From contig JAHEGO010000005.1 in assembly GCA_024645045.1 (NCBI GenBank), positions 1-44,535 on the forward strand: a stretch of DNA of 44,535 bases. Direction: 5' to 3'. The position numbers and the translations under genes were made by a program. Positions 9,546-25,946 of this stretch are shown here, piece after piece (position 1 is the first letter of the stretch; every line of letters begins with the position of its first letter). Source of the DNA: Sphingobacteriaceae bacterium (GTDB taxonomy: Bacteria; Bacteroidota; Bacteroidia; Sphingobacteriales; Sphingobacteriaceae). The notes beneath the pieces are model-generated. The model saw only the letters and a program-made list of their open reading frames with translations, was not told the origin of the DNA and made no database searches.

Positions 9546-11903
9546 TTACTTAATGAATCTGATGGTTTGATTATGGAATTCATTTTGAATTTTTATAAAA
9601 TAAATTCCCTTTGGAAAATTAGTAACATCAATTTCCTCACTTTCTTCAAACGAAAATTCAAGTTTATCTTTTCGCAAAAGCAATCCAAAATCATTATATA
9701 TTTCATATTTTAAAATGGAATTTTTAGCAAGCATTTGACTATTTTTAAGTTTAATTTGATCTATCACTGGATTTGGAAATACAGCCCATTGATTCGCTAA
9801 TTTTCTAGTATTTATTGAAGTTGTTGTGGGTAGAAAAAACAATTTAAACCTTTGATCATTAAAAGATGCTGAATCCATGTTTGTATGAACGTTGTAATGG
9901 TATTTGTCACTTAAAAGGAAAGTTTTATTTAAGTAAAAATCTACTAAATAAACATGGTATTGTTCGAAACTTGATACATCCTCAAAAATTAGATCAAAAT
10001 TCGTAAAACAGGTGCCTAAAATGCTCAATGCTACTGCTCTATCTCCTTCTATTTTTGCAAGCGAATTAATTGCAAATCTTTCGAATTCTTTTCCAATACT
10101 GGCAATATTTACTAATGAATTAGTAAACTTTAAGCCATCATATAAATCAAAATGGTCGTTGGCATTTTCATTAAAGTGAATAAATGTAGCATCGCAATTT
10201 AAACTATCCACTTTCAAACTAATTTTTAAATGGTTATTCAATTTATTTTTGAAATAATTACCTCCCTTATTTTGTGACTTATCACCCTCGTCTATTTGTA
10301 ATCCACCAGCCAATCCTGTTTGTTGAACAAAAAATGCTTGGCCAGCACTAATATATCTTGACGCATCTCCAGTTAAGCCATTCCAAGATTGAAAACTATT
10401 TGTAGAAGGATTGTATATGGTGTATGTATTTGAAATATCAATTCCCTTTGAAATGCAATTCCAGTCTATGCTTGAAGGATACGGGTTCCCAATTAAATTA
10501 AAACCACTATTTAAGTTACTGTTTGTTTTGGTTGTGTTAATGTTTATCGTGTGTCCTGGATAGGTTCCATTGACAGTTAAAATAGTTGAAGTCGGAACAA
10601 CACTTCCTGTGCCATCTAGGCTAATTGTTCTGTCTCCCCTTATTAAAATTCTAAACCCTTTGCCATTAGTCAAAGCCTCTGTATTTCCATTTGTAAAGGC
10701 TGTCCAGCCAATATCGCTTGTTGCACCAGAACCAATTGTAATATCACTTCCCGCAAGTAGTTCGTTATACCAAAATGCACTCGCTGCATTTGTAATAGAA
10801 GGATCGAAATTATTTAAAGCACCTCCTACTCCAGTAATATGTGTACCTTTTCTAACTATATCATTTCCTAAGTTTCGCCATTGTGCAGCAATTGCTCCAT
10901 TTACAGGGGATGCTAAAAACCTGAATTTTCTCAATGGAGGTATATAAGTTTCAACTGAAATACTGCCAATAATTTGACCATCCGAATATCCAATACTTGC
11001 AGAATTATTTGAATCGGCAAGTAGTTTAAAAATTCCATTTGTTTGGATATGGATTGTTTTAGAATATGGAATTTGAATGTTTTTTCCTGGTAATATATTT
11101 AATGAAGCATCATTATTTATATTGATACTTGGTAAGGCTAAACTAGAATCCAAGTTGATTGTATTACCAGTTAAAATGTTTACTCCACTTGCATTTGAAT
11201 CTGGGATACGTGTTGCATCAATCCAGTTTAAGTTATTATTAGTGGATTCCCAGCTTGACAATGCTGTCCATAATCCAGAAGTTTTTGACCGAAAAAAATC
11301 AGTATTTTGGGTATTTGTTAATTTGTACAGTGTAATGTTTTGTTGAGTTCCAATATAACATGCAAACCTTGGAGAGGAAGTATTATATTGTAATTGTCGA
11401 CTATTATTAAATAAATTACTGATAATAAAATTAGAATTTAAAATTGAAAATTGCCATCTTCCAGAAGCATTACTGATAGTTGTTGCTTCAGAAATACTAT
11501 TTCCTGTACCATTATAATAAATGTATTTCTGACTTAATTCATTGAAAATAGTATATCCGCCTTCATCATTTGAAGTTATTTTCCAAACCAACATTCCATT
11601 TGGGTGAATGATATTATTATTAATTGACGAAATTGTAGTATTTGCAAAATAATTATTGATTCCATTTATATTATTCATTGCATAGACGCTGCCATCTTGT
11701 TGCTTGAAGTAGGTAATCAAATAATAGCCATCTGTTAAATTGGCCAAATTATTAATTTTAGAAAAAGTACCAAGGTTGTTGTATTGACCTATCGATTTCT
11801 CTGAAACAAAAATCAAATAAATAAATACAGCAATAACTTTAAAAAATGATATTTTAGGATTAGAAATCTTATAAATCCAGCTTTTTATCCATTGTATAAC
11901 CAT
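9546..11903 (-). CDS. Large secreted protein with type IX secretion (type A) sorting domain
   Basis: The 785-residue protein has an N-terminal hydrophobic export signal (about residues 20-40) and a beta-rich Asn/Ser/Thr-rich body. From about residue 705 onward there is a Por-type C-terminal domain: WAVFPNPVIDQI, then EIYNDFGLLL, then the FPKGIYFIKI and TIRFIK strands. This domain directs cargo through the T9SS to the cell surface, where it is attached or released. A repeat-like segment around residues 205-280 (SGLWTALSSWES... LPGKNIQI) resembles the beta-helical stretches of other Bacteroidota surface proteins. No catalytic motif is recognised. Adhesion or surface-layer roles are only guesses. 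Confidence 0.88.
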   Translation of the reverse strand: MVIQWIKSWIYKISNPKISFFKVIAVFIYLIFVSEKSIGQYNNLGTFSKINNLANLTDGYYLITYFKQQDGSVYAMNNINGINNYFANTTISSINNNIIHPNGMLVWKITSNDEGGYTIFNELSQKYIYYNGTGNSISEATTISNASGRWQFSILNSNFIISNLFNNSRQLQYNTSSPRFACYIGTQQNITLYKLTNTQNTDFFRSKTSGLWTALSSWESTNNNLNWIDATRIPDSNASGVNILTGNTINLDSSLALPSININNDASLNILPGKNIQIPYSKTIHIQTNGIFKLLADSNNSASIGYSDGQIIGSISVETYIPPLRKFRFLASPVNGAIAAQWRNLGNDIVRKGTHITGVGGALNNFDPSITNAASAFWYNELLAGSDITIGSGATSDIGWTAFTNGNTEALTNGKGFRILIRGDRTISLDGTGSVVPTSTILTVNGTYPGHTININTTKTNSNLNSGFNLIGNPYPSSIDWNCISKGIDISNTYTIYNPSTNSFQSWNGLTGDASRYISAGQAFFVQQTGLAGGLQIDEGDKSQNKGGNYFKNKLNNHLKISLKVDSLNCDATFIHFNENANDHFDLYDGLKFTNSLVNIASIGKEFERFAINSLAKIEGDRAVALSILGTCFTNFDLIFEDVSSFEQYHVYLVDFYLNKTFLLSDKYHYNVHTNMDSASFNDQRFKLFFLPTTTSINTRKLANQWAVFPNPVIDQIKLKNSQMLAKNSILKYEIYNDFGLLLRKDKLEFSFEESEEIDVTNFPKGIYFIKIQNEFHNQTIRFIK

Positions 11904-12112: not shown

Positions 12113-12625
12113 ATGAATACAAATAAAAACCAGCTGATAACGGTATCTACAATGGTTGCAATTGCAGCAGCTACCCGTTTTTTACCTCATCCTCCTAATT
12201 TTACTGCAATTGGTGGTATGGCATTATTTGGTGCCGCAACTTTAAATAATAAGAAATTAGCACTTATGGTACCAGTTATGGCCATGGTTATTTCAGATTT
12301 ATTTATCCCTAACGGTTTCGATTTTGCGGTATATGCAGCTTTTATTGCAATTGCAGCATTGGGTCTATACATAAGAAATAAAAAAGGAGTTTTGCCTGTT
12401 ATTGCAGGTTCTTTAACAGCATCTGTAATTTTCTTTGTGATTAGCAACTTTGCAGTTTGGGTAAGCCAAGCGATGTATGCTAAAAATGCAATTGGTTTAA
12501 TGACTTGCTTCGGAGCAGCCATTCCATTTTTTCCAAATACCATTGCAGGTGATTTATTTTTCAGCTCATTGTTATTTGCTTCATATGCAATGATTAAAAA
12601 AACCAATCTTGTTATTGTAAAATAA
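12113..12625 (+). CDS. DUF6580-type putative membrane transport protein
   Basis: The 170-residue protein has five to six hydrophobic segments, beginning with a conserved-looking block (AAATRFLPHPPNFTAIGGMA) that I associate with the DUF6580 putative transport family. The overall shape resembles the substrate-binding S component of ECF transporters. The frame also opens from GTG at 12050, but ATG 12113 is preferred: the extra 21 residues are unlike a membrane-protein N terminus, and a TATTTTTG -7-like box lies at 12087-12094, inside that extension. It is convergent with the B12 uptake genes, which hints at cobalamin transport, but no riboswitch precedes it and the link is inference. Confidence 0.7.
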   Translation: MNTNKNQLITVSTMVAIAAATRFLPHPPNFTAIGGMALFGAATLNNKKLALMVPVMAMVISDLFIPNGFDFAVYAAFIAIAALGLYIRNKKGVLPVIAGSLTASVIFFVISNFAVWVSQAMYAKNAIGLMTCFGAAIPFFPNTIAGDLFFSSLLFASYAMIKKTNLVIVK

Positions 12626-12652
12626 TTACAAAATATATTTCCAATAAAAAAA

Positions 12653-12674
12653 GACCAAATAATTTTATTTGGTC
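12653..12674. terminator. Bidirectional terminator between the DUF6580 and btuG-like genes
   Basis: A perfect 10-bp stem (12653-12662 with 12665-12674) is flanked by A7 on the left and T7 on the right, so it can terminate both converging transcripts. It lies 27 bases after the plus-strand stop and 27 bases after the minus-strand stop. Confidence 0.8.
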
Positions 12675-12701
12675 TTTTTTTATGTCTTTGGTTTTAGCTT
12701 T

Positions 12702-13775
12702 TTATTGAAGGTGAATTCCATTGGGTACTTTGCCAACTCTTATAGAATCAATGAGTATTCCACTGTTACTATTGTATCTCCACATTAATCCATCTTGACT
12801 GAAATCCAAAGGATCTGCGGCGTAAATTTTATCATCTAATGGATCAATACCAATACCATAAAAATAACCTGATACAAATGGGCTCATCGGTATGGTGTTT
12901 TCGTATATACCTATTTTATAAATACCATTATTTGCACCGTCTATAGCCGTATTGATTAATAAATTCAATTTATCATTCGTTATTGCCAATTTGTCTGGAT
13001 GGTCACCTTGCACTCCTATAACGATTTTAGATGCAATGGTTTGTGAATACTTATTTAATTTAACCAATGCTCCTTTAGTGTCATCTTCTTTCATACCAAA
13101 ATCTTTGTAATCTCCTCGACAAAGCACCCAAACATCTTTATTCGCGTCTTGTGCAAAAGCAATTGGTGCATCACCAACAATAACATTTTTGATAACTTGA
13201 TTGGTATTGATATTAATAATACTAATTGTGCTGTCATTAATGTAACCACCAGAATTTGCTACATATAAAAAACTATCTACTAAAATTAAGGCTTCTGGAC
13301 CTTCACCAACTGGTATGCTAGCAACAATAGTATTAGTTTTTAAGTTGACTTCTTTAACAGTATTACTTACCCAATCTGCAACAAAACCCCTAGTTTCATT
13401 TACACCTAAGAAACATCTTGGTGATGAAAAACCATTGATACTTGCTACTGATTTAAAAGTTTTAGCATCAATAACCTCTACTTTCGCAGAACCATTTAAA
13501 ACGATATAACCTTTGTTTTTAAATATTGTCATAGATTGTGCCACATCTCCCAATGGTCTGCCATTAACTGTTTCAAAAACATTTTTAATTAATCGATTTG
13601 AATCTCTTTGGTAAAAATCGATACTGGCATTTCCTACACCAAAATTTCCTTCATTGATGATGAAAACCCCTTTGTCAAATGCTAAATTCGGGTCAATGGG
13701 TGTTGGTGTTGGTTCTTCTGTGCAAGCTTGCAGAGAAATAGCAAGAATGGCTAATAATCCTAATTTAATTTTCAT
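12702..13775 (-). CDS. btuG: BtuG-like surface beta-propeller lipoprotein (DUF5074 type)
   Basis: The 357-residue protein starts with a lipoprotein signal whose lipobox is LQAC. The Cys is followed by Thr-Glu-Glu, an acidic stretch like the surface-export signal of Bacteroidota lipoproteins. The body consists of repeated YncE-like blades (for example DAKTFKSVASINGF, NLKTNTIVASIPVGEGPEAL, NINTNQVIKNVIVGDAPIAF), predicting a seven-bladed propeller. In Bacteroides, BtuG is such a lipoprotein, sits on BtuB and captures B12 with extreme affinity. Here the gene begins three bases after the btuB-like stop, under a cobalamin riboswitch, so the same role is proposed. Direct ligand specificity is inferred. 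Confidence 0.75.
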   Translation of the reverse strand: MKIKLGLLAILAISLQACTEEPTPTPIDPNLAFDKGVFIINEGNFGVGNASIDFYQRDSNRLIKNVFETVNGRPLGDVAQSMTIFKNKGYIVLNGSAKVEVIDAKTFKSVASINGFSSPRCFLGVNETRGFVADWVSNTVKEVNLKTNTIVASIPVGEGPEALILVDSFLYVANSGGYINDSTISIININTNQVIKNVIVGDAPIAFAQDANKDVWVLCRGDYKDFGMKEDDTKGALVKLNKYSQTIASKIVIGVQGDHPDKLAITNDKLNLLINTAIDGANNGIYKIGIYENTIPMSPFVSGYFYGIGIDPLDDKIYAADPLDFSQDGLMWRYNSNSGILIDSIRVGKVPNGIHLQ

Positions 13776-13778
13776 GTG

Positions 13779-15686
13779 TTATTTGTTTAAGTATAATTGA
13801 AGGTTAATGCTGTAAACCCTTCCTGGTAATGGTCTGAAGGGTATAGATTCTATGTTTTTATTTCCTATATTTTCAATTCTGAATAAAATTTGATATTGGT
13901 TTTGTTGGTGTAAAAACAAATGTCCCAATGCGATATCATGTAATAAATAAGTTGGTAAAAACTGTTTATTATCAGAGCTGGTATACCTAAATCCATTGTA
14001 ATTGAAGCTATATTGAAACCATGTGTTTTGATGACTTAATTTCAACAGTAAACTACTCTTATTGATGGGTACATATATCAATTGTTTGCCTACACTTTGA
14101 TCATTTAAACTCATCGATTTAGAATTGATTGCATGGTTAATTGAAAAATTATAATTTGTATGGAAATAAAATGCACCCAATTTTCTATTCATAGTTGCAA
14201 TTAATTCCAAACCATAAATATTGACTTGCCTTAAATTTTGAGGTGTCCAAATGCCATTTTCAATTGCAGCAGGTTGCCAAAGAATCCAATTATTGATCAT
14301 TCCATAATAGGTGTTCAATGAAATTATATCGCTTTTGTTTTTATATTTAACATTTAGATCTAATTCTAATCCTTGCTCTGCAAGTAAGCTAGGATTACCT
14401 CCTGGTTGCCAATACAAATCATTTAAACTTGGTAGGTTATAGTTTTTACTCAACCATAAACCAATTGCAAGGTCTTTTTTCAGTAGGTTTTTTTTATTAA
14501 AAGAAATTTGAGATGCAAATAAATTTTTACGAAGCGCATATTCATATCGGTTAATGAAATCGATTGTCCAATTATTTTTTAATATGAATTCTTCGTTAAT
14601 AGCAAGTGAATTTCTGAATCGATATTGATACTTTCCATAATCGGCAATACTTGCGCCCTCATAAATACTGGAAAGATTAATTTGTTCATTTCTTTTTACA
14701 AAATTTCTGCCATATGAAAATTCAAAATTGATGGCATCAAATGTGCTTTTAGAATTTAACAATTCTAAATTTGTAGCTCCAGCCTTTATTCTATTGACAT
14801 ATCGAATATATTCTCTATTATGCCCTAAAGTCCATTTATAGCGGTGAAAGCTATTTTTAATGGTTGAATAAGTCGCGATGTTTCTCAACGCATGGTCTAA
14901 TTGGTAGGCTGTTTGGTTTCTGTTAAATATCGGCGGCCCTATATTTCGATCACTTTCTTGATACCATGAATGTAAGGTGAATAATGACCTCGAATTTAGT
15001 TGATAATATATTTGGTGAATGATTCCTCCTGATTTGACTTCAGCATTTATTTGATTTTGCTTAGGATTATTGAATTGAGTGTAATTCGAAAAGCGATAAT
15101 GATTCTGATTGTTTAAATAATTTAATGTAAATATTGAACGTATTTTTTCCTTTCCAAATTTTAAGTTTAACTGACTAATAGCAGCGTCCGTACTTGCATA
15201 AGTTTGAGAAAAAGAGATCTTGTTGCTATTATTTTCGAATGGATTGTTTGTATTTAATAAGATAACACCTCCCATTGCAGCAGATCCGTATTCTGCTGAT
15301 GCTGCTCCATATTGAATTTCAATTTTATCACTGCTGTTAGTTGGAATGGTTGAAAAATCTAACAGTCCTAACATTGAAGAGCCAATACTTAAACCGTTCC
15401 ATAATACTTTGGTATGGTTTGCGTTGGTACCTCTAAAGCTAATGGTACTTGAACCTCCAGCACCATAATTCTTAAAACTAATGGTACTGGCATTTGTCAG
15501 TAAATCACTTAAAGAAGTATAATTTGATTTTAAAAAATTTGAAATATATAATGCATTTAGCTTTTTGGGCTCATCGGTTTTGATTACAATCAAAACCTGA
15601 TTCACTTTTACGGTATCAGTTAAAGGATGTGACCATCCGTTAAAGAAAACTAATAAAAAAGAAATTGTCCAAATATATTGCTTCAT
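13779..15686 (-). CDS. btuB: TonB-dependent outer-membrane receptor for cobalamin (BtuB-like)
   Basis: The 635-residue outer-membrane beta-barrel imports corrinoids with TonB-ExbBD energy. It has a signal peptide (about 1-19) and a plug domain around residues 45-150 with the typical blocks FKNYGAGGSSTISFRGTNAN and YGAASAEYGSAAMGGVILLN. Alternating aromatic barrel strands follow to a C terminus of PLPGRVYSINLQLYLNK. It lacks the N-terminal carboxypeptidase-like domain of SusC proteins. Substrate assignment rests on the cobalamin riboswitch in its leader (about 110 bases from aptamer end to ATG) and on the adjacent BtuG-like gene. Confidence 0.88.
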   Translation of the reverse strand: MKQYIWTISFLLVFFNGWSHPLTDTVKVNQVLIVIKTDEPKKLNALYISNFLKSNYTSLSDLLTNASTISFKNYGAGGSSTISFRGTNANHTKVLWNGLSIGSSMLGLLDFSTIPTNSSDKIEIQYGAASAEYGSAAMGGVILLNTNNPFENNSNKISFSQTYASTDAAISQLNLKFGKEKIRSIFTLNYLNNQNHYRFSNYTQFNNPKQNQINAEVKSGGIIHQIYYQLNSRSLFTLHSWYQESDRNIGPPIFNRNQTAYQLDHALRNIATYSTIKNSFHRYKWTLGHNREYIRYVNRIKAGATNLELLNSKSTFDAINFEFSYGRNFVKRNEQINLSSIYEGASIADYGKYQYRFRNSLAINEEFILKNNWTIDFINRYEYALRKNLFASQISFNKKNLLKKDLAIGLWLSKNYNLPSLNDLYWQPGGNPSLLAEQGLELDLNVKYKNKSDIISLNTYYGMINNWILWQPAAIENGIWTPQNLRQVNIYGLELIATMNRKLGAFYFHTNYNFSINHAINSKSMSLNDQSVGKQLIYVPINKSSLLLKLSHQNTWFQYSFNYNGFRYTSSDNKQFLPTYLLHDIALGHLFLHQQNQYQILFRIENIGNKNIESIPFRPLPGRVYSINLQLYLNK

Positions 15687-15796
15687 TGTTGCATTAAAAA
15701 TGCTTTCAAAATGGAGAGAATATAAAGATAAATACCGTTGTAATAACGTGAATCATATCTCATGCTTCTATCCCCGAAAGCTGTGATTTAAAATTA

Positions 15797-15950
15797 CAAG
15801 GCAGGTCTTCTGACTTACTCTTTATCATTCGCCTTCCCAATTTCTCAGTGGCTTAGAATGAATGATAATCAATAGAGCTTACAGCAGCGGGTCTGTCTCG
15901 GATTTACACCGAATTCCCTTTTAATTCCGATAAAATCGGAAACCATTGCA
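15797..15950 (-). promoter_or_regulatory. Cobalamin (AdoCbl-type) riboswitch
   Basis: On the minus strand the leader carries the B12 box AGTCAGAAGACCTGCC (15815-15800), the upstream conserved run GGGAATTCGGTGTAAATCCG, then ACCCGCTGCTGTAAGC and AGCCACTGAG, in the order of the cobalamin aptamer. It begins near 15950 and ends near 15797, leaving about 110 bases before the btuB-like ATG that should hold the expression platform; no clear U-tract terminator is visible there, so control is more likely at translation initiation. Binding of adenosylcobalamin should turn off btuB-btuG. The rest of the 332-base gap (15687-16018) holds nothing else I recognise. Confidence 0.93.
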
Positions 15951-15953
15951 CTG

Positions 15954-15961
15954 CAAAAGTA
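15954..15961 (-). promoter_or_regulatory. -7 box of the riboswitch-btuB transcript
   Basis: TACTTTTG on the minus strand matches the Bacteroidota -7 consensus exactly and would place the transcription start at about 15949, right where the aptamer begins. No TTG is seen at the usual -33 spacing, so support is partial. Confidence 0.45.
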
Positions 15962-16018
15962 ATATATTTAAAACTGGAAAGATTTTAATTTAATAAACAA
16001 CCTGTGGAAAATTAGTAA

Positions 16019-18999: not shown

Positions 19000-19416
19000 T
19001 TAGTCTATGGTTGCAATACACTTTAATTCAATTGCAATTGGTGTAGGTAAGCAATTTATTTCGCAGGTTGTTCTACAAGGTAAATTATCTTTAAAATATT
19101 CGGCATATATTTCGTTGTATTTTTTGAAATCATCTTTCATATTGGTAAGGAAGACGGTCACATCTACTAAGTTTGCCCATGAAGAACCAGCTTCTTCTAA
19201 AATCAATTTAACATTGTTAAACACTGATCTGCATTGAATTTCAATGTCGTAAGCGGTAATTTCTCCTTGTTCATTTAATTCTACACCTGGAATTTTTTTG
19301 GTGCCTTTTTCACGAGGGCCAACGCCAGATAAAAATAATAGGTTTCCTACTCTTCTTGCATGTGGATACAAACCAACTGGTTCTGGCGCTTTTGATGAAT
19401 TGATAATTTCTGACAT
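19000..19416 (-). CDS. RidA-family protein, probable 2-aminomuconate deaminase
   Basis: The 138-residue protein belongs to the RidA/YjgF/Rid family of trimeric imine/enamine deaminases. Conserved blocks are LFLSGVGPRE, NVKLILEEAG and the C-terminal PCRTTCEINCLP with the carboxylate-binding Arg, followed by IAIELKCIA. In bacterial kynurenine clusters the RidA member that accompanies the semialdehyde dehydrogenase converts 2-aminomuconate to 2-oxo-3-hexenedioate (4-oxalocrotonate) with release of ammonia. The assignment here depends on that context: it starts eight bases after the dehydrogenase stop. A general enamine-repair RidA remains possible. Confidence 0.85.
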   Translation of the reverse strand: MSEIINSSKAPEPVGLYPHARRVGNLLFLSGVGPREKGTKKIPGVELNEQGEITAYDIEIQCRSVFNNVKLILEEAGSSWANLVDVTVFLTNMKDDFKKYNEIYAEYFKDNLPCRTTCEINCLPTPIAIELKCIATID

Positions 19417-19424
19417 ATTCTTTT

Positions 19425-20864
19425 TTAATATTTAATACAAATGTTTTTGGGTTCTGTAAAGAAGCGTAATGCCTCCCAACCACCTTCCCTGCCTACTCCT
19501 GAGCTTTTCATTCCACCAAAAGGCGTACGTAAATCTCTTAATAACCAACAGTTCACCCAAATAATTCCACATTGAATGGCATCTGCCATTTGATGCGCAT
19601 TATTCAAATTCTCAGTCCAAATACTACAAGCTAAACCATACTCGGTTGCGTTAGCATATTGAATTACTTCTTCTTTTTGATCGAATGGCATGATGGTTAC
19701 CACAGGTCCAAAAATTTCTTCCATATTGGTTCTGCAATTATAGCTCAAACCTTCAATTACAGTAGGTTCTATGAAATATCCATTTTCACATCTACCGCTT
19801 GGATTTATTGCATTTCCTCCTGCTAATATTTTGCCACCTTCTTGTTTCGCTAGCTCGATATAGGAAAGTATTTTTTCAAAATGATTTTTAGAAACAATAG
19901 CTCCTAAGTTCACTTCCTCATTAGGATCTCCTACTTTTAATGCTTTTACTTTTTCTACAAAAGCGGTTTTGAATTTTTCGTAAATGGGTCTTTCAACCAT
20001 AATTCTAGAACCACATAAACAAATTTGTCCTTGGTTTTCAAATGATGATCTTAACACTGTTTTAAGCATTTTATCAAAATTGCAATCTGCAAAAATGATG
20101 GTAGGGTTTTTACCACCTAATTCTAAAGACAATTTCTTAAACATAGGTGCAGCAAGGCTTGCAATGCGTTTACCAGTACTCGTTCCACCAGTAAATGAAA
20201 TGGCTTTAATGCTTGGATGTAATGAAATAACGTCACCAATTTTCGAACCTAAACCATGAACAATATTTAATACTCCTTTTGGTAAACCTGCTTCAATACA
20301 GACCTCAGATAAAAGGTAAGCAGTATAAGGTGTAACCTCTGTAGGCTTTGCAACTACACAATTTCCAGCAACCAATGCAGGAGCAATTTTCCAAGAAAAT
20401 AAATATAAAGGTAAGTTCCAAGGAGAAATACATGCAACTACGCCTATCGGTCTTCTAGTGGTATAATTTACTCCTAAACCCTCCATATAATGAGATTCAG
20501 AGTTAAAATGTTGAATGCCTGTTGCAAAAAATCTAAAATTATGAATCGCTCTTGGAATATCTACTTGTCTTGCCAACCATTGTGGCTTACCATTATCCAA
20601 AGATTCAGCAATCACAAACTCTTCCATCCTAGCTTCAATTCCAGCAGCTATTTTTTCAATAATTGCTGCTCTTTTTTCAAAATGCATATTAGCCCAACCA
20701 TTGCATGCTTCGTTAGCAGCAGCAACAGCCAATTCAATATCTTCTGATTCAGAATCTGGTATGTATGAATAAACTTTACCTGTTGCTGGTTCAATATTTT
20801 CGAGGTATTTACCAGCTTTTGGTGCAATTAATTCCCCGTTTATATAATTTAGAATTTTCTTCAT
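19425..20864 (-). CDS. 2-aminomuconate 6-semialdehyde dehydrogenase (ALDH8-like)
   Basis: This NAD-dependent aldehyde dehydrogenase should oxidise 2-aminomuconate semialdehyde to 2-aminomuconate, the step after ACMS decarboxylation. Counting from the ATG at 20864 (MKKILNYINGEL), the visible residues are Asn150 (SPWNLPLY), the NAD loop FTGGTSTGK, Glu248 (SLELGGKN) and nucleophile Cys282 in QGQICLCGSR, a motif typical of the muconic-semialdehyde branch. The protein is 479 residues, normal for the family. An in-frame extension to 20909 would overlap the SDR stop and is not conserved-looking. It lies ten bases after the SDR gene in the leftward kynurenine operon. Confidence 0.9.
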   Translation of the reverse strand: MKKILNYINGELIAPKAGKYLENIEPATGKVYSYIPDSESEDIELAVAAANEACNGWANMHFEKRAAIIEKIAAGIEARMEEFVIAESLDNGKPQWLARQVDIPRAIHNFRFFATGIQHFNSESHYMEGLGVNYTTRRPIGVVACISPWNLPLYLFSWKIAPALVAGNCVVAKPTEVTPYTAYLLSEVCIEAGLPKGVLNIVHGLGSKIGDVISLHPSIKAISFTGGTSTGKRIASLAAPMFKKLSLELGGKNPTIIFADCNFDKMLKTVLRSSFENQGQICLCGSRIMVERPIYEKFKTAFVEKVKALKVGDPNEEVNLGAIVSKNHFEKILSYIELAKQEGGKILAGGNAINPSGRCENGYFIEPTVIEGLSYNCRTNMEEIFGPVVTIMPFDQKEEVIQYANATEYGLACSIWTENLNNAHQMADAIQCGIIWVNCWLLRDLRTPFGGMKSSGVGREGGWEALRFFTEPKNICIKY

Positions 20865-20874
20865 TGGAAATGAA

Positions 20875-21663
20875 TTAAAAGGCCATCGTTCTTCCACCAT
20901 CAACAGCAATGCTTTGGCCGTTAATATAGGCAGCTGCAGGACTAGCTAAAAATGCTGTTAGCGCAGCTACTTCCTCTGGATTACCAAATCTACCAGCGGG
21001 AATTTCAGCTAACATTTCTGCTTCTATTTCTGCAATTTGATGATTGGTTTTACTTGCTTTATTTTGAATGATACTTTCTAATCTAATGGTTTTAGTTGCG
21101 CCTGGTAAAACATTATTTACTGTTATGCCAAAAGGTGCAACTTCAAAACTTAATGTTTTTGCCCAGCCTGCAACAGCTGCTCTTGTTGCATTTGAAACAC
21201 CTAGACCTTTTAATGGTTGTTTAACTGATGTAGAAATAATATTGATAATTCTACCCCAATTATTCTTTTTCATACCAGGTAAAAATGCTTGAACCAATGC
21301 ATGGTTACATAATAAATGACTTTGGTAAGCAGCCATAAATGAATTGATTTCAGCTTCAACAATGGCACCAGCTGGAGGTCCACCAGTATTATTTACAAGT
21401 ATATCGATGTTGTTTTGTAAGGCATATTCATTGGCTTTGTACTTTACATGCAACGAATCTGAAAAATCAGCTACCAAGTATTGATGTTTTTGGTTTTTAC
21501 TTAAATCTAATTCAGCTAAAACTATTTTTAAAGCTTCCTCATTTCTAGCTACTAAGGTAACATTGGCCCCTAATTCGGCTAATTCCATAGCAATGGATTT
21601 TCCAATTCCCTGTGTACTTCCACAAACAATTGCGTTTTTATTTATTAAAGATAGGTCGATCAT
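20875..21663 (-). CDS. Atypical short-chain dehydrogenase of the kynurenine cluster
   Basis: The 262-residue Rossmann protein has a nucleotide loop (CGSTQGIGKS, residues 14-23), the NNTGGPPAG block and the C-terminal ASPAAAYINGQSIAVDGGR typical of 3-oxoacyl-ACP-reductase-like SDRs. The catalytic YxxxK is replaced by Ser157-x-x-x-Arg161 (VSNATRAAVAGW), while Ser144/Ser146 remain. This matches the BKR-like SDR subgroup known to lack the classical tetrad (cd05344). It is the first gene of the leftward operon, next to the dehydrogenase and deaminase genes. Its reaction is unknown; a role on a muconate-semialdehyde or oxo-acid intermediate is inference from position. Confidence 0.85.
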   Translation of the reverse strand: MIDLSLINKNAIVCGSTQGIGKSIAMELAELGANVTLVARNEEALKIVLAELDLSKNQKHQYLVADFSDSLHVKYKANEYALQNNIDILVNNTGGPPAGAIVEAEINSFMAAYQSHLLCNHALVQAFLPGMKKNNWGRIINIISTSVKQPLKGLGVSNATRAAVAGWAKTLSFEVAPFGITVNNVLPGATKTIRLESIIQNKASKTNHQIAEIEAEMLAEIPAGRFGNPEEVAALTAFLASPAAAYINGQSIAVDGGRTMAF

Positions 21664-21668
21664 AAAGG

Positions 21669-21698
21669 CAAATATAAATGTATTGTAGTGGTTTTCAG
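21669..21698 (-). promoter_or_regulatory. Candidate promoter of the leftward kynurenine operon
   Basis: On the minus strand CTG (21698-21696), a 19-base spacer and TATATTTG (21676-21669, exact -7 consensus) precede the SDR ATG at 21663 by only five bases, which suggests a very short or absent leader. Confidence 0.4.
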
Positions 21699-21723
21699 AA
21701 TAAAACTAAAAAAGCTATATTTA
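21694..21723 (+). promoter_or_regulatory. Candidate promoter of the rightward kynurenine operon
   Basis: TTC (21694-21696), 19 bases and TATATTTA (21716-21723) fit the Bacteroidota promoter with one mismatch in each box. Its -33 region overlaps the -33 region of the opposite promoter at base 21696. A leader of about 34 bases would precede the dioxygenase ATG. Confidence 0.35.
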
Positions 21724-21762
21724 CTGCATTAAACCCATTTTATTTACCTTAATTTAAAGATC

Positions 21763-22287
21763 ATGGCTATTCAAAAACCCTTCAATTTTAAAGCTTGGAT
21801 TGACAACAATCGTCATTTACTGAAACCACCAGTTGGCAATCAATGTGTTTACAAAGACGCAGAAAATTTTATTGTAATGGTTGTAGGCGGGCCAAATTCA
21901 AGAAAGGATTTTCATTACAATGAAAGTGAAGAATTGTATTTGCAAATTGAAGGTAATATGGTATTGAGAATTATTGATGAAGGTAAACAAGTTGATATTC
22001 CTATCAATGAAGGTGATATGTTTTTATTACCACCTAAGACACCTCATTCTCCTCAAAGACCCGAAAACACAGTGGGTTTAGTAATAGAAAAGGTTAGAGA
22101 AAATAAAGAAATTGATGGGTTTTTATGGTTTTGTGAAAACTGTAATGAAAAATTATACGAAGAGTATTTTGAACTAACTGATATCGTGAAGCAATTACCA
22201 CCAGTAATGGAAAAGTTTTATTCATCTGAAACTAACCGAGTTTGTAACCATTGCGGTACTGTAATGCAACCACCAGTTAAAAAATAA
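21763..22287 (+). CDS. nbaC: 3-hydroxyanthranilate 3,4-dioxygenase
   Basis: This cupin dioxygenase opens the ring of 3-hydroxyanthranilate to 2-amino-3-carboxymuconate semialdehyde. Iron ligands His51, Glu57 and His95 (HYNESEELYL, PPKTPHSPQRP) and the substrate residues Arg47, Arg99 and Glu110 are all present at the numbering of the Cupriavidus enzyme. The C terminus keeps the rubredoxin-like CxxC pair (Cys124/127 and Cys161/164) of bacterial forms. Length 174 is standard. It is the first gene of the rightward operon, with three bases to the next start. The symbol follows Pseudomonas nba naming; haaO is an equivalent. Confidence 0.96.
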   Translation: MAIQKPFNFKAWIDNNRHLLKPPVGNQCVYKDAENFIVMVVGGPNSRKDFHYNESEELYLQIEGNMVLRIIDEGKQVDIPINEGDMFLLPPKTPHSPQRPENTVGLVIEKVRENKEIDGFLWFCENCNEKLYEEYFELTDIVKQLPPVMEKFYSSETNRVCNHCGTVMQPPVKK

Positions 22288-22290
22288 TTC

Positions 22291-23301
22291 ATGTTAAAAA
22301 TAGATATCCATACCCATATTATTCCAGAAAAAATGCCTAATTGGGCAGAACGCTTTGGTTACGGTGGGTTCATAAGTTTACATCATCATCAACCATGTTG
22401 TGCAAAAATGATGATTGATGATAAATTTTTCAGAGAAATTCAAAGTAATTGTTGGGATCCTGTAGTTAGAATTTCAGAATGCAATCACCATCATATTGAT
22501 GTTCAAGTATTATCAACTATTCCAGTATTATTTTCTTATTGGGCAAAAGCAAAAGACGCATTAGAATTATCAAAATTCTTAAATGACCATATAGCAGATG
22601 TAGTTAATCGTTATCCAAAAAGATTTGTTGGTTTAGCTACCATACCTTTACAAGATATTGATTTAGCAATTTTAGAATTACAAAGATGTGTGAAAGAGCA
22701 AGGTTTTGCTGGCGTTCAAATTGGCTCACATGTAAATGATTTAAACTTAAACGATCCTCATTTTTTCCCTTTTTATGAAGAAGCGGAAAAATTAGGTGCT
22801 GCTATATTTGTTCACCCTTGGGACATGATGGCCAAAGATAAAATGGCAAAATACTGGCTTCCGTGGTTGGTGGGTATGCCAGCCGAATCATCATTGGCTA
22901 TTTGTTCAATGATTTTTGGAGGTGTATTTGAAAAATTCCCTAAACTAAGAGTAGCATTTGCTCATGGTGGCGGTTCTTTTCCTGCAACTATTGGTAGAAT
23001 AGAACATGGTTTTAATGTTAGACCAGATTTAGTTGCAATAGATAATCCAATTAATCCAAGAAATTATTTAAATAAAATATATTTTGATACGCTTGTACAC
23101 GATCCGTTAATGATGAATTATTTATTGGATTTAGTAGGTCCGAATCAATTGGCTTTAGGAACAGATTACCCATTTCCTTTGGGCGAATTAAGCCCTGGAA
23201 AATTAATTGATAGCATGCCATTTAATAATACCATCAAAGAAAGACTTTTCCATGGAACTGCACTGGAATGGTTAGGTTTGAAAAAAGAACAATTCTTATA
23301 A
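22291..23301 (+). CDS. nbaD: 2-amino-3-carboxymuconate-6-semialdehyde decarboxylase (ACMSD)
   Basis: This zinc amidohydrolase-superfamily decarboxylase turns ACMS into 2-aminomuconate semialdehyde, steering flux away from quinolinate/NAD. The 336-residue protein has zinc ligands His7 and His9 (IDIHTHI), His175 (FVHPWD) and Asp292 (GTDYPFPLGE), the catalytic His225 (AFAHGGGSF) and Arg236 (IGRIEHG), each two or three positions from the Pseudomonas fluorescens numbering. It lies between the dioxygenase (three-base gap) and kynureninase (one-base gap), so translation is probably coupled. Confidence 0.96.
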   Translation: MLKIDIHTHIIPEKMPNWAERFGYGGFISLHHHQPCCAKMMIDDKFFREIQSNCWDPVVRISECNHHHIDVQVLSTIPVLFSYWAKAKDALELSKFLNDHIADVVNRYPKRFVGLATIPLQDIDLAILELQRCVKEQGFAGVQIGSHVNDLNLNDPHFFPFYEEAEKLGAAIFVHPWDMMAKDKMAKYWLPWLVGMPAESSLAICSMIFGGVFEKFPKLRVAFAHGGGSFPATIGRIEHGFNVRPDLVAIDNPINPRNYLNKIYFDTLVHDPLMMNYLLDLVGPNQLALGTDYPFPLGELSPGKLIDSMPFNNTIKERLFHGTALEWLGLKKEQFL

Positions 23302-23302
23302 A

Positions 23303-24562
23303 ATGCAACACGAAAACAATTTATCATACGCTCAAAAATTAGATCAAGAAGACTCTTTAAAAGAATTTAGAAAAGAATTTTTATTTCCACAACACAATGG
23401 AAAAGATGTAATTTATTTATGTGGAAATTCGCTCGGATTACAACCTAAAAATGTAGAAAAATACCTTTTAGATCAACTTAAAAACTGGTCAACTTTTGGT
23501 GTGGAAGGGCATTTTAAGTCTGCTACTCCTTGGATGTATTACCAAAAAACAACACAAGAAAGTTTAGCTAAAATTGTAGGTGCAAAACCAATTGAGGTTG
23601 TAGCCATGAATCAATTAACAGTAAACCTACATTTGTTAATGGTGAGTTTTTATAGACCAACTGAAAAGCGATATAAAATCATTATGGAAGGTACTGCTTT
23701 TCCTTCTGATCAATATGCCATGGAGTCTCAAGTATTACACCATGGTTTTCGTCCGGAAGATGCCATTATTGAATTAACACCACGTAGTGGTGAATACACT
23801 TTAAGAAAAGAAGATATTCTAGCTGCTATTTCGGAACATGCAGATTCATTGGCTTTGGTAATGATGGGTGGTGTAAATTATTACAGTGGACAATTTTTTC
23901 CATTAGCAGAAATAACCAAAGCTGCTCATGCTGCAGGTGCACTTTGTGGTTTTGATTTAGCACATACCTGTGGAAATATTCCATTACAATTACACGATTG
24001 GGATGTTGATTTTGCAGCTTGGTGTTCTTATAAATATTTAAATTCTAGTCCAGGTGGCATTGCGGGTATTTACATTCATGAAAAACATGCATTAAACCCT
24101 GAAACACCTCGTTTTGCTGGCTGGTGGGGATACCAAGAATCTACCAGATTTATCATGAAGAAAGGTTTTATTCCAGAACCAGGAGCAGAAGGTTGGCAAC
24201 TAAGTAATGTGCCTGTATTACAAATGGCAGCTCATAGAGCAGCGTTAGATTTATTTGATGCTGCTGGAATTGAAAATTTAAGAACAAAAAGTTTAGCATT
24301 AACAAGCTATATGCAATTTGTTATTCAAGAAAAAAATAAATCTTTGGGTTATGAAAAATATAAAATAATAACACCGCTCAATCCAGCTGAACGTGGTGCT
24401 CAAATTTCAATTATATGTAAAGAAGGTGGAAAAGAAAGCTTCGATAAACTGGTAGAACAAGGAATTATAGGTGATTGGCGAGAACCAGAGGTATTAAGGT
24501 TCGCTCCTGTTCCTTTGTATAATTCGTTTGAGGATGTATTTCAATTTGGTCAAATTATTTAA
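23303..24562 (+). CDS. kynU: Kynureninase
   Basis: This PLP-dependent fold-type I enzyme cleaves kynurenine or 3-hydroxykynurenine to anthranilate or 3-hydroxyanthranilate plus alanine. The 419-residue protein has the Schiff-base Lys244 (WCSYKYLNSSPGG), the PLP-ring Asp218 (GFDLAHTCGN) and the N-terminal LCGNSLGLQP and TPWMYYQ substrate motifs. Length and motifs match bacterial and animal KynU. It sits in the middle of the rightward operon directly before the monooxygenase, which makes 3-hydroxykynurenine its likely main substrate. Confidence 0.97.
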   Translation: MQHENNLSYAQKLDQEDSLKEFRKEFLFPQHNGKDVIYLCGNSLGLQPKNVEKYLLDQLKNWSTFGVEGHFKSATPWMYYQKTTQESLAKIVGAKPIEVVAMNQLTVNLHLLMVSFYRPTEKRYKIIMEGTAFPSDQYAMESQVLHHGFRPEDAIIELTPRSGEYTLRKEDILAAISEHADSLALVMMGGVNYYSGQFFPLAEITKAAHAAGALCGFDLAHTCGNIPLQLHDWDVDFAAWCSYKYLNSSPGGIAGIYIHEKHALNPETPRFAGWWGYQESTRFIMKKGFIPEPGAEGWQLSNVPVLQMAAHRAALDLFDAAGIENLRTKSLALTSYMQFVIQEKNKSLGYEKYKIITPLNPAERGAQISIICKEGGKESFDKLVEQGIIGDWREPEVLRFAPVPLYNSFEDVFQFGQII

Positions 24563-24575
24563 TTAACAATATTTT

Positions 24576-25946
24576 ATGTCAACAGATAAAAAAGTAACAT
24601 TGATTGGTGCAGGTTTAGTTGGTTCTTTACTTTCAATGTATTTAGCGAAAAGAGGTTATCAAGTTTCTATATTTGAAAAAAGAGCTGACATGCGAAAAGC
24701 TGGTTATGTAGGTGGACGTTCTATCAATTTAGCCTTAAGTCATAGAGGTTTCAATGGCTTAGAAGCAATCGGTTTAGCTGAAGAAATAAGAAAAGTTGGT
24801 ATTCCAATGTATGGTCGCGTATTACACCAAGCGAATGGCGATATTCAATATCAAGCATATGGAAAAGAAGGAGAAGCGATCTATTCCGTTTCTAGAGGTG
24901 GATTAAATAAAAAACTAATGGAATTGGCAGATGAAAATCCAAATATCCATATCACCTTTGAAAAAAATTGCATAGATGTTGACATAAAAAATGGCATCTG
25001 TCATTTTGAAGACATGCAAACGCATGAAAAAACAACAGTAAATTCAGATTTAATTTTATCTGCTGATGGTGCATTTTCTGCAGCCAGACTTGCATTACAG
25101 ACAAAATCAGAAAGATTCGAATATCATCAAACTTATTTAGATCAAGGATATAAAGAGCTTACAATTCCTGCTGGACCTAACGGAACTTTTTTATTAGAAA
25201 AAGAAGCTTTACACATTTGGCCAAGGAACAAATACATGATGATTGCTTTACCCAATCTTGATGGATCGTTTACTTGTACTTTGTTTTTTCCATTTGAAGG
25301 TGAAGTATCATTTAATGCATTGAAAACTAGAGAGCAGGTTACCGCTTTCTTAACAAAAGATTTTCCAGATGTTGTAGCATTAGCACCTAATGTAGTGGAT
25401 GAATACATGGCTAATCCGAATGGTTCATTAGTTACTGTAAGAGCCTATCCATGGTCGTTTGAAGGCAAGGTTGGTTTACTTGGTGATGCATCACATGCAA
25501 TTGTTCCATTCTTTGGACAAGGAATGAATGCGGGTTTTGAAGATTGTTTTGAATTGGGTAAATTAATGGATTTACACCAAGATGATTGGAAAACAATATT
25601 ATCAGAATTTCAAATTAGTAGAAAACCAAATGCAGATGCAATTGCTGATATGGCCTTAGAAAATTTCATTGAGATGCGAGATAAAGTAGCAGATCAAAAA
25701 TTCTTGTTACGTAAAAAGATTGAGCAAAAAATCAGTAAAAAATATCCTGAAAATTATATTTCAAAGTATGCATTAGTCAGTTTTGGAACTGCACCTTATA
25801 AAGATGCATTGGCTACTGGTTTTAAGCAAGATGCTTTATTTGAAAAGGTTTTAGCCATTCCATCAATAGAGCAAAACTGGGATAGTCCAGAAACTGAAAC
25901 GAAAATTGAACATTTATTAAAAGAATTTGGATTCATTAATGGATAA
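24576..25946 (+). CDS. kmo: Kynurenine 3-monooxygenase
   Basis: This FAD-dependent aromatic hydroxylase makes 3-hydroxykynurenine from kynurenine with NADPH and oxygen. The 456-residue protein shows the FAD GxGxxG (LIGAGLVGSLLS, residues 9-20), the substrate-side GGRSINLALSHRG block and the second FAD motif GLLGDASHAIVPFFGQGMNA. As usual for bacterial forms there is no strong C-terminal membrane anchor. Thirteen bases separate it from kynU, and its stop overlaps the start of the penicillin-binding protein gene by eight bases. Confidence 0.96.
   Translation: MSTDKKVTLIGAGLVGSLLSMYLAKRGYQVSIFEKRADMRKAGYVGGRSINLALSHRGFNGLEAIGLAEEIRKVGIPMYGRVLHQANGDIQYQAYGKEGEAIYSVSRGGLNKKLMELADENPNIHITFEKNCIDVDIKNGICHFEDMQTHEKTTVNSDLILSADGAFSAARLALQTKSERFEYHQTYLDQGYKELTIPAGPNGTFLLEKEALHIWPRNKYMMIALPNLDGSFTCTLFFPFEGEVSFNALKTREQVTAFLTKDFPDVVALAPNVVDEYMANPNGSLVTVRAYPWSFEGKVGLLGDASHAIVPFFGQGMNAGFEDCFELGKLMDLHQDDWKTILSEFQISRKPNADAIADMALENFIEMRDKVADQKFLLRKKIEQKISKKYPENYISKYALVSFGTAPYKDALATGFKQDALFEKVLAIPSIEQNWDSPETETKIEHLLKEFGFING

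Follow-up and report, generated by a model that had tools for sequence, protein, structure and literature searches.

In gut Bacteroides, the TonB-dependent receptor BtuB and the surface propeller lipoprotein BtuG are encoded together behind a cobalamin riboswitch. The loci of B. thetaiotaomicron contain an ATP-binding cassette (ABC) transporter (PMC10404256). A second described system is BtuM of Thiobacillus denitrificans, a solitary vitamin B12 transporter that has the fold of the S-components of energy-coupling factor (ECF) transporters and is encoded beside btuB in genomes with neither BtuCDF nor an ECF module. PMC6072759 describes BtuM as mostly proteobacterial and places its invariant cobalt-binding Cys80 in loop 3. 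Here, we analyzed a stretch of 44,535 nucleotides (hereafter, the window; contig JAHEGO010000005.1) from a small-genome member of a Sphingobacteriaceae-like family, in which a riboswitch-preceded btuB-btuG pair faces a gene for a DUF6580 membrane protein. We consider it probable that these four features constitute a cobamide scavenging route, in which DUF6580 replaces BtuCDF as a cobamide importer of the solitary S-component type. An earlier reading of the window (the original prediction) had raised DUF6580 as a possible inner-membrane step, and the predicted fold, the linkage to riboswitches, and the near-complete mutual exclusion with the BtuC family described below all point the same way.

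At gathering threshold, Rfam finds a single element in the window, a cobalamin riboswitch aptamer (RF00174; positions 15783..15963, minus strand). It covers the whole model at 108.9 bits (E 1.7e-26; gathering score 31.5) and lies 96 nt upstream of the start codon of a btuB-type gene (13779..15686, minus strand). The encoded TonB-dependent cobamide receptor (635 aa) has a TonB plug domain. Its best NCBIfam match is TonB-B12 (8.3e-25), yet under that model's cut-off, and its nearest solved chains are Bacteroides BtuB (8bmx_C, 4e-52; 8p98_A, 4e-49; and also 8p97), taken from BtuB-BtuG complexes. After a spacing of 3 bp follows a btuG-type gene (12702..13775, minus strand) for a seven-bladed propeller protein of 357 aa that matches DUF5074 (2.1e-26). 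Its nearest solved chains are BtuG (8p97_B, 8okv_B, and 3dsm_A, 1e-37 to 1e-35), and structures 8p97 and 8bmx contain the BtuB partner too. We call it a surface lipoprotein because of its lipobox LQAC; the N-terminus continues LQAC-TEEP, i.e., with two acidic residues; the original prediction had pointed out acidic residues after the lipid cysteine. Judged by sequence, a BtuB-related receptor thus stands next to a BtuG propeller lipoprotein behind a cobalamin riboswitch, as had been anticipated, and homology strongly implies that the riboswitch controls btuB-btuG. This part of the locus is known biology in another host, a Sphingobacteriaceae-like bacterium rather than the gut Bacteroides that supplied the BtuB-BtuG complexes. 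What sets the window apart is the candidate inner-membrane partner, which is DUF6580 here and an ABC transporter in the B. thetaiotaomicron loci.

The DUF6580 gene (12113..12625, plus strand; PF20221 at 167.4 bits, cut-off 27) is convergent with btuG, with a stop-to-stop gap of 76 bp, and encodes a membrane protein of 170 aa. An AlphaFold model built from 42 family members (mean predicted local distance difference test 92.3; predicted template modeling score 0.86) has six helices, within the five or six that had been expected. The resemblance to ECF S-components, likewise foreseen, extended over nearly the whole model: the top eight Foldseek chains from the PDB were all S-components, and ranks 1–20 in VIA-align 2 were all ECF-type S-components, with Z 9.7–13.7 and 151–163 of the 170 residues aligned. 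BtuM was among them, both with hydroxycobalamin (Z 13.1) and with cyanocobalamin (Z 13.0), whereas the next family after the S-components, methane monooxygenase, reached Z 6.5. On this model, DUF6580 is predicted to have the six-helix S-component fold that is common to FolT, ThiT, RibU, BioY, PanT, and CbrT.

We mapped conservation with 145 unique DUF6580 sequences, an alignment that omits open reading frames (ORFs) of 260 aa or more and loci without a called DUF6580 ORF (L128, L142, L192, L197, L224, L226, and L235). The best-conserved positions include R22, N29, F30, D62, Y74, Y122, G128, P138, and F139, and loops 1, 3, and 5 are where most of the conserved residues of polar or aromatic type cluster. 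Loops 2 and 4 are rich in lysine and arginine; with these loops placed inside, most conserved residues fall at the periplasmic end, which is where S-components bind their substrates. The assignment of a binding face rests on topology and conserved positions. The commonest histidine column is His26 (72%) and the commonest cysteine column is Cys132 (54%).

How close is DUF6580 to BtuM? The two share a length of ~170–200 residues, six helices, the fold, a place beside btuB, and host genomes with neither BtuCDF nor an ECF module. However, loop 3 of the window protein reads LFIPNGFD, and the DUF6580 alignment has no conserved cysteine in this loop; no cysteine column exceeds 54%, and the invariant loop-3 residue of BtuM has no counterpart. 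Profile search found no sequence relation between the two, and DUF6580 occurs mostly in Bacteroidota, unlike BtuM. We rejected membership of DUF6580 in the BtuM family because of the missing cysteine and the sequence, although fold and proposed role agree. If DUF6580 is an importer, it would represent a variation on the BtuM type of solitary S-component B12 carrier.

The gene content of the host genome (G000; 1.83 Mb, 95.6% complete) leaves room for such a carrier. The original prediction had noted no BtuCDF in view, and the genome-wide search extended this, with no match to the FecCD (BtuC-family) permease model PF01032 in G000. CbiQ/EcfT, CobS, and CbiC were not detected in G000 either, and the genome has one detected cobalamin riboswitch, four B12-binding-domain matches, and two matches to the family of BtuF-type binding proteins. 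Without CbiC, CobS, or FecCD but with B12-binding domains, G000 looks like a cobamide user that lacks a textbook inner-membrane importer; from its gene content, it appears neither to make the corrin ring nor to attach the lower ligand. A complete btuCDF elsewhere, with DUF6580 unconnected to B12 genes, would have spoken against the proposal; we found no FecCD permease and an association of DUF6580 with B12 genes.

This absence is part of a pattern across the phylum. Among 148 sampled genomes, 59 had DUF6580 above cut-off, 96 had a clear FecCD match, and 147 had B12-binding domains. DUF6580 and FecCD occurred together in 8 genomes, DUF6580 alone in 51, FecCD alone in 88, and neither in 1 (Fisher 6e-30); the corresponding counts were 8, 33, 42, and 0 by genus (6e-16) and 1, 15, 17, and 0 by family majority (1.5e-8), with p values that overstate independence because genomes are related. 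These counts exclude seven weak FecCD matches with E 2e-7 to 2e-10 (G221, G236, G263, G295, G301, G309, and G319), and G261, whose DUF6580 match fell below cut-off, was left out. Counting the weak matches as present gave 15, 44, 88, and 1 (p 1.7e-23). Of the 88 genomes with FecCD alone, at least 34 had it 10 kb or less from a cobalamin riboswitch, whereas the eight genomes with both had no FecCD within 10 kb of a riboswitch among the matches listed (one was at 15 kb). The same search in the family to which the window belongs covered 36 genomes with DUF6580, 30 of which had no FecCD (G040 was excluded). A survey for DUF6580 also included 48 genomes without it, and the 20 of these that are listed all belong to genus g2; four g2 genomes examined had neither DUF6580 nor a cobalamin riboswitch. 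G001, the g2 genome in the phylum sample, has no B12-binding domain, so its FecCD presumably serves another ligand.

DUF6580 is also linked to cobalamin riboswitches. A regular expression for riboswitches found just 14 of 30 known sites and was dropped in favor of a covariance model (R1), which under-detects distant riboswitches because its training set was 22 riboswitches of the window's family. Among 36 family genomes with known DUF6580 positions (G025, whose position was not listed, was excluded), 26 had the gene no more than 6 kb from a cobalamin riboswitch, against a chance expectation of 0.2, and in 18 of these 26 it was downstream on the same strand. In the phylum sample, at least 15 of the 59 DUF6580 genomes had the gene within 5 kb of a riboswitch (0.18 expected), to which R1 adds G335 and G291. 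We therefore rejected chance association. The expectation that DUF6580 genes elsewhere lie under cobalamin riboswitches thus held for many relatives, while the window copy is convergent.

The usual layout in ~40 fetched loci is riboswitch-btuB-(btuG)-DUF6580. Some genomes extend it with cobU, a gene resembling diphthamide synthases, cobT, cobS, cobC, and a SIR2 gene. In Daejeonella-type genomes, as in the window, DUF6580 instead faces the end of the riboswitch operon from the opposite strand. Cultured relatives that carry DUF6580 include Daejeonella lutea DSM 22385 (L178), where the gene is likewise convergent, and Flavihumibacter soli R14 (L177). Beyond this order-level set we covered 80 named loci, and the pattern recurred in metagenome-assembled genomes (MAGs) of other phyla, whose labels may be wrong for single contigs: riboswitch-receptor-DUF6580 in MAGs labeled Ignavibacteria/Ignavibacteriales (L118, L119, L130, L140, L169, and L175) and Deltaproteobacteria (L147, and L145 with one intervening gene), and riboswitch-DUF6580 in a Kordiimonadales MAG (L176). 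An Rfam check of 14 distant loci found a cobalamin riboswitch in 8 (L118, L119, L142, L143, L145, L147, L176, and L197), while Rfam found none in L002–L011 with 1.5 kb flanks, which are shorter than a receptor gene. The riboswitch stands directly before DUF6580 in L176, L217, and L225; in the last two (genomes G317 and G291), a second one precedes the receptor.

Other neighbors were informative as well. A split metH lies beside DUF6580 in Flavobacteriaceae-type loci (L155 and L182 by family models; L170, L174, and L187 by translation), L149 has DUF6580 behind nrdJ-cobO-DUF4430 (nrdJ for an adenosylcobalamin-dependent ribonucleotide reductase, cobO for a corrinoid adenosyltransferase), and L203 has a microcompartment shell and aldehyde dehydrogenase cluster nearby. 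Overall, 80 of the 145 unique sequences had a recognized B12 neighbor or riboswitch (for two of these 80, L188 and L158, the labels "metH" and "nrdJ/cobO" rest on analogy), and 63 had a riboswitch. The window's DUF6580 falls in a clade of 29 members (support 0.92), 21 of which are B12-linked and 18 have a riboswitch.

Several further proteins recur in these operons. A BtuF-like gene follows DUF6580 in G030, G062, G104, and G096 (the family was identified on the G104 copy), and BtuF-like genes are present in the DUF6580 operons of L041, L058, L059, L061, L212, and L231, with no FecCD found in those genomes. In L149 (7309-7950), the corrinoid adenosyltransferase and DUF6580 genes flank a gene for a DUF4430 protein, with a similar layout in L153 (7312-7950). 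DUF4430 is a transcobalamin-related domain, so this protein may bind cobamides at the cell surface or in the periplasm. A Diphthami_syn_2 PP-loop protein (PF01902) recurs beside btuB and DUF6580 (L143, L154, L176, L183, L200, and L212); it is found in MAGs of several phyla and in the B12 operons of 16 of 40 order-level loci (cluster c4). A SIR2-family gene (cluster c2) occurs in 24 of the 40 order-level B12 loci, often right after DUF6580.

Besides the relatedness of the sampled genomes, several observations weigh against DUF6580 as the importer. First, the Foldseek E-values are weak. None was as low as 0.001 (the best was FolT, E 0.032), and a profile of the 42 DUF6580 proteins had no match at E up to 10 among solved chains, BtuM entries included. 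A Z of about 13 for a helical bundle can stem from common architecture; we argue that the S-component match is true because of the clean gap in Z and the full coverage. Second, the exclusion has exceptions. A clear FecCD is present in eight of the 59 DUF6580 genomes (15 with weak matches included), G332 has neither protein despite a riboswitch and B12-binding domains, and a btuC could have been missed in G000, which is 95.6% complete. Third, the linkage is partial. The window copy is convergent with btuB-btuG and has no riboswitch of its own by Rfam in the window, 9 of the 36 family genomes had none within 10 kb of DUF6580, and 44 of the 59 phylum genomes had none within 5 kb among the riboswitch matches listed, although R1 places one nearby in at least two of these (G335 and G291). 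No riboswitch was detected in the DUF6580-bearing genomes G312 and G074, and 65 of the 145 sequences had no recognized B12 link in the fetched flanks. In family f21 (L198–L223), most fetched copies sit in a conserved cluster that also has YceI and DUF4956 genes and shows no evident tie to B12; this copy is possibly a paralog with another substrate. Two genomes, G276 and G268, have one DUF6580 copy in a YceI/DUF4956 cluster and one behind a riboswitch.

Among other explanations, the one that survives best is that DUF6580 is an accessory of B12 metabolism, e.g., a membrane cobamide sensor or chaperone, while another protein carries out inner-membrane transport. The S-component fold is found in receptors too (PMC11109136), and patterns of association and exclusion cannot separate a transporter from the obligatory partner of another transporter. 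On the other hand, DUF6580 replaces FecCD nearly one for one, lies directly behind btuB or btuG with no other candidate permease recurring in the mapped operons, and, at ~170–200 aa, has no fused signaling domain. We regard an accessory role as improbable. Even less likely, in our judgment, is that DUF6580 works as an S-component with an ATP-driven module that the CbiQ/EcfT model missed, although all well-studied S-components except BtuM and some BioY proteins act with such a module (PMC6072759, PMC11109136). CbiQ/EcfT was found in just 3 of the 59 DUF6580 genomes (56 without), and G000 is not among the three. The mapped operons show no recurring gene for EcfT or an ATPase, ATPases elsewhere in the genomes not having been surveyed.

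DUF6580 might instead import another compound of the pathway, either cobalt or a base for the lower ligand (for example, dimethylbenzimidazole or alpha-ribazole). Two S-component-fold proteins of B12 regulons offer models for this, namely CbiM, which carries cobalt, and CblT, which carries lower-ligand precursors, and cobU, cobT, cobS, and cobC share the DUF6580 operon in some genomes. But CbiC, for corrin-ring synthesis, was found in 0 of the 59 DUF6580 genomes and CobS, for lower-ligand attachment, in 5, with neither in the window genome. Genomes without these enzymes would gain nothing for cobamide synthesis from imported cobalt or free bases, yet B12-binding domains are present. We thus disfavor both a cobalt and a lower-ligand transporter and consider this explanation very unlikely. 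We give equally little credence to a DUF6580 without any B12 role and a chance neighborhood in the window, which the convergent gene and the roughly half of loci without a recognized B12 neighbor might suggest, given the excess of riboswitch-near copies in the family and the recurrence in MAGs of other phyla.

We therefore return to DUF6580 as the importer and suggest the following route. By homology to studied proteins, BtuG would capture cobamide at the cell surface and pass it to BtuB, which would take it into the periplasm with TonB energy. DUF6580 would then bind cobamide from the periplasmic side, close to loops 1, 3, and 5, and, as fold, linkage, and exclusion suggest, move it to the cytoplasm alone, as BtuM does, without a recognizable ECF module. 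The proposed step, cobamide from periplasm to cytoplasm, is that of BtuCDF, although DUF6580 is one small protein of another fold. In some relatives, the BtuF-like periplasmic protein retained in the same operon probably feeds DUF6580; we know of no other case in which a binding protein works with an S-fold carrier. If cobalt is liganded at all, it would be by something other than the cysteine of BtuM. A broader proposal, to which we hold only tentatively and which we think may well fail, is that DUF6580 proteins are widespread single-protein, ATPase-free cobamide importers that replace BtuCDF in much of Bacteroidota and in further phyla, with a BtuF-like handover in several lineages and cobalt held by a ligand other than the BtuM cysteine. 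In a literature search that had most subscription journals outside its reach, the word DUF6580 was not found, and no title or abstract on B12 uptake, BtuM, or BtuG assigned an importer role to it.

Beyond the B12 locus, family models identified a Vut_1/queuosine-precursor transporter gene (TIGR00697; 16019..16786, minus strand), a second small vitamin-type carrier adjoining the locus. It terminates upstream of the riboswitch and is therefore not downstream of it. On the other side, divergent from DUF6580, lies a gene whose large product bears a type IX secretion sorting domain (9546..11903, minus strand; family models). Further away, positions 19000-25946 hold kynurenine and aminomuconate breakdown genes (RidA family, aldehyde dehydrogenase, 3-hydroxyanthranilate dioxygenase, amidohydrolase, kynureninase, and FAD monooxygenase).

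Of the 52 sampled genomes without a clear FecCD, 51 have DUF6580, which provides a concrete importer candidate for much of Bacteroidota. If the proposal is true, predictions of B12 uptake would be corrected for many bacteria from the environment, including several in culture, and DUF6580 would offer a second, independent solitary carrier of the S-component fold in which to study ATP-free function.

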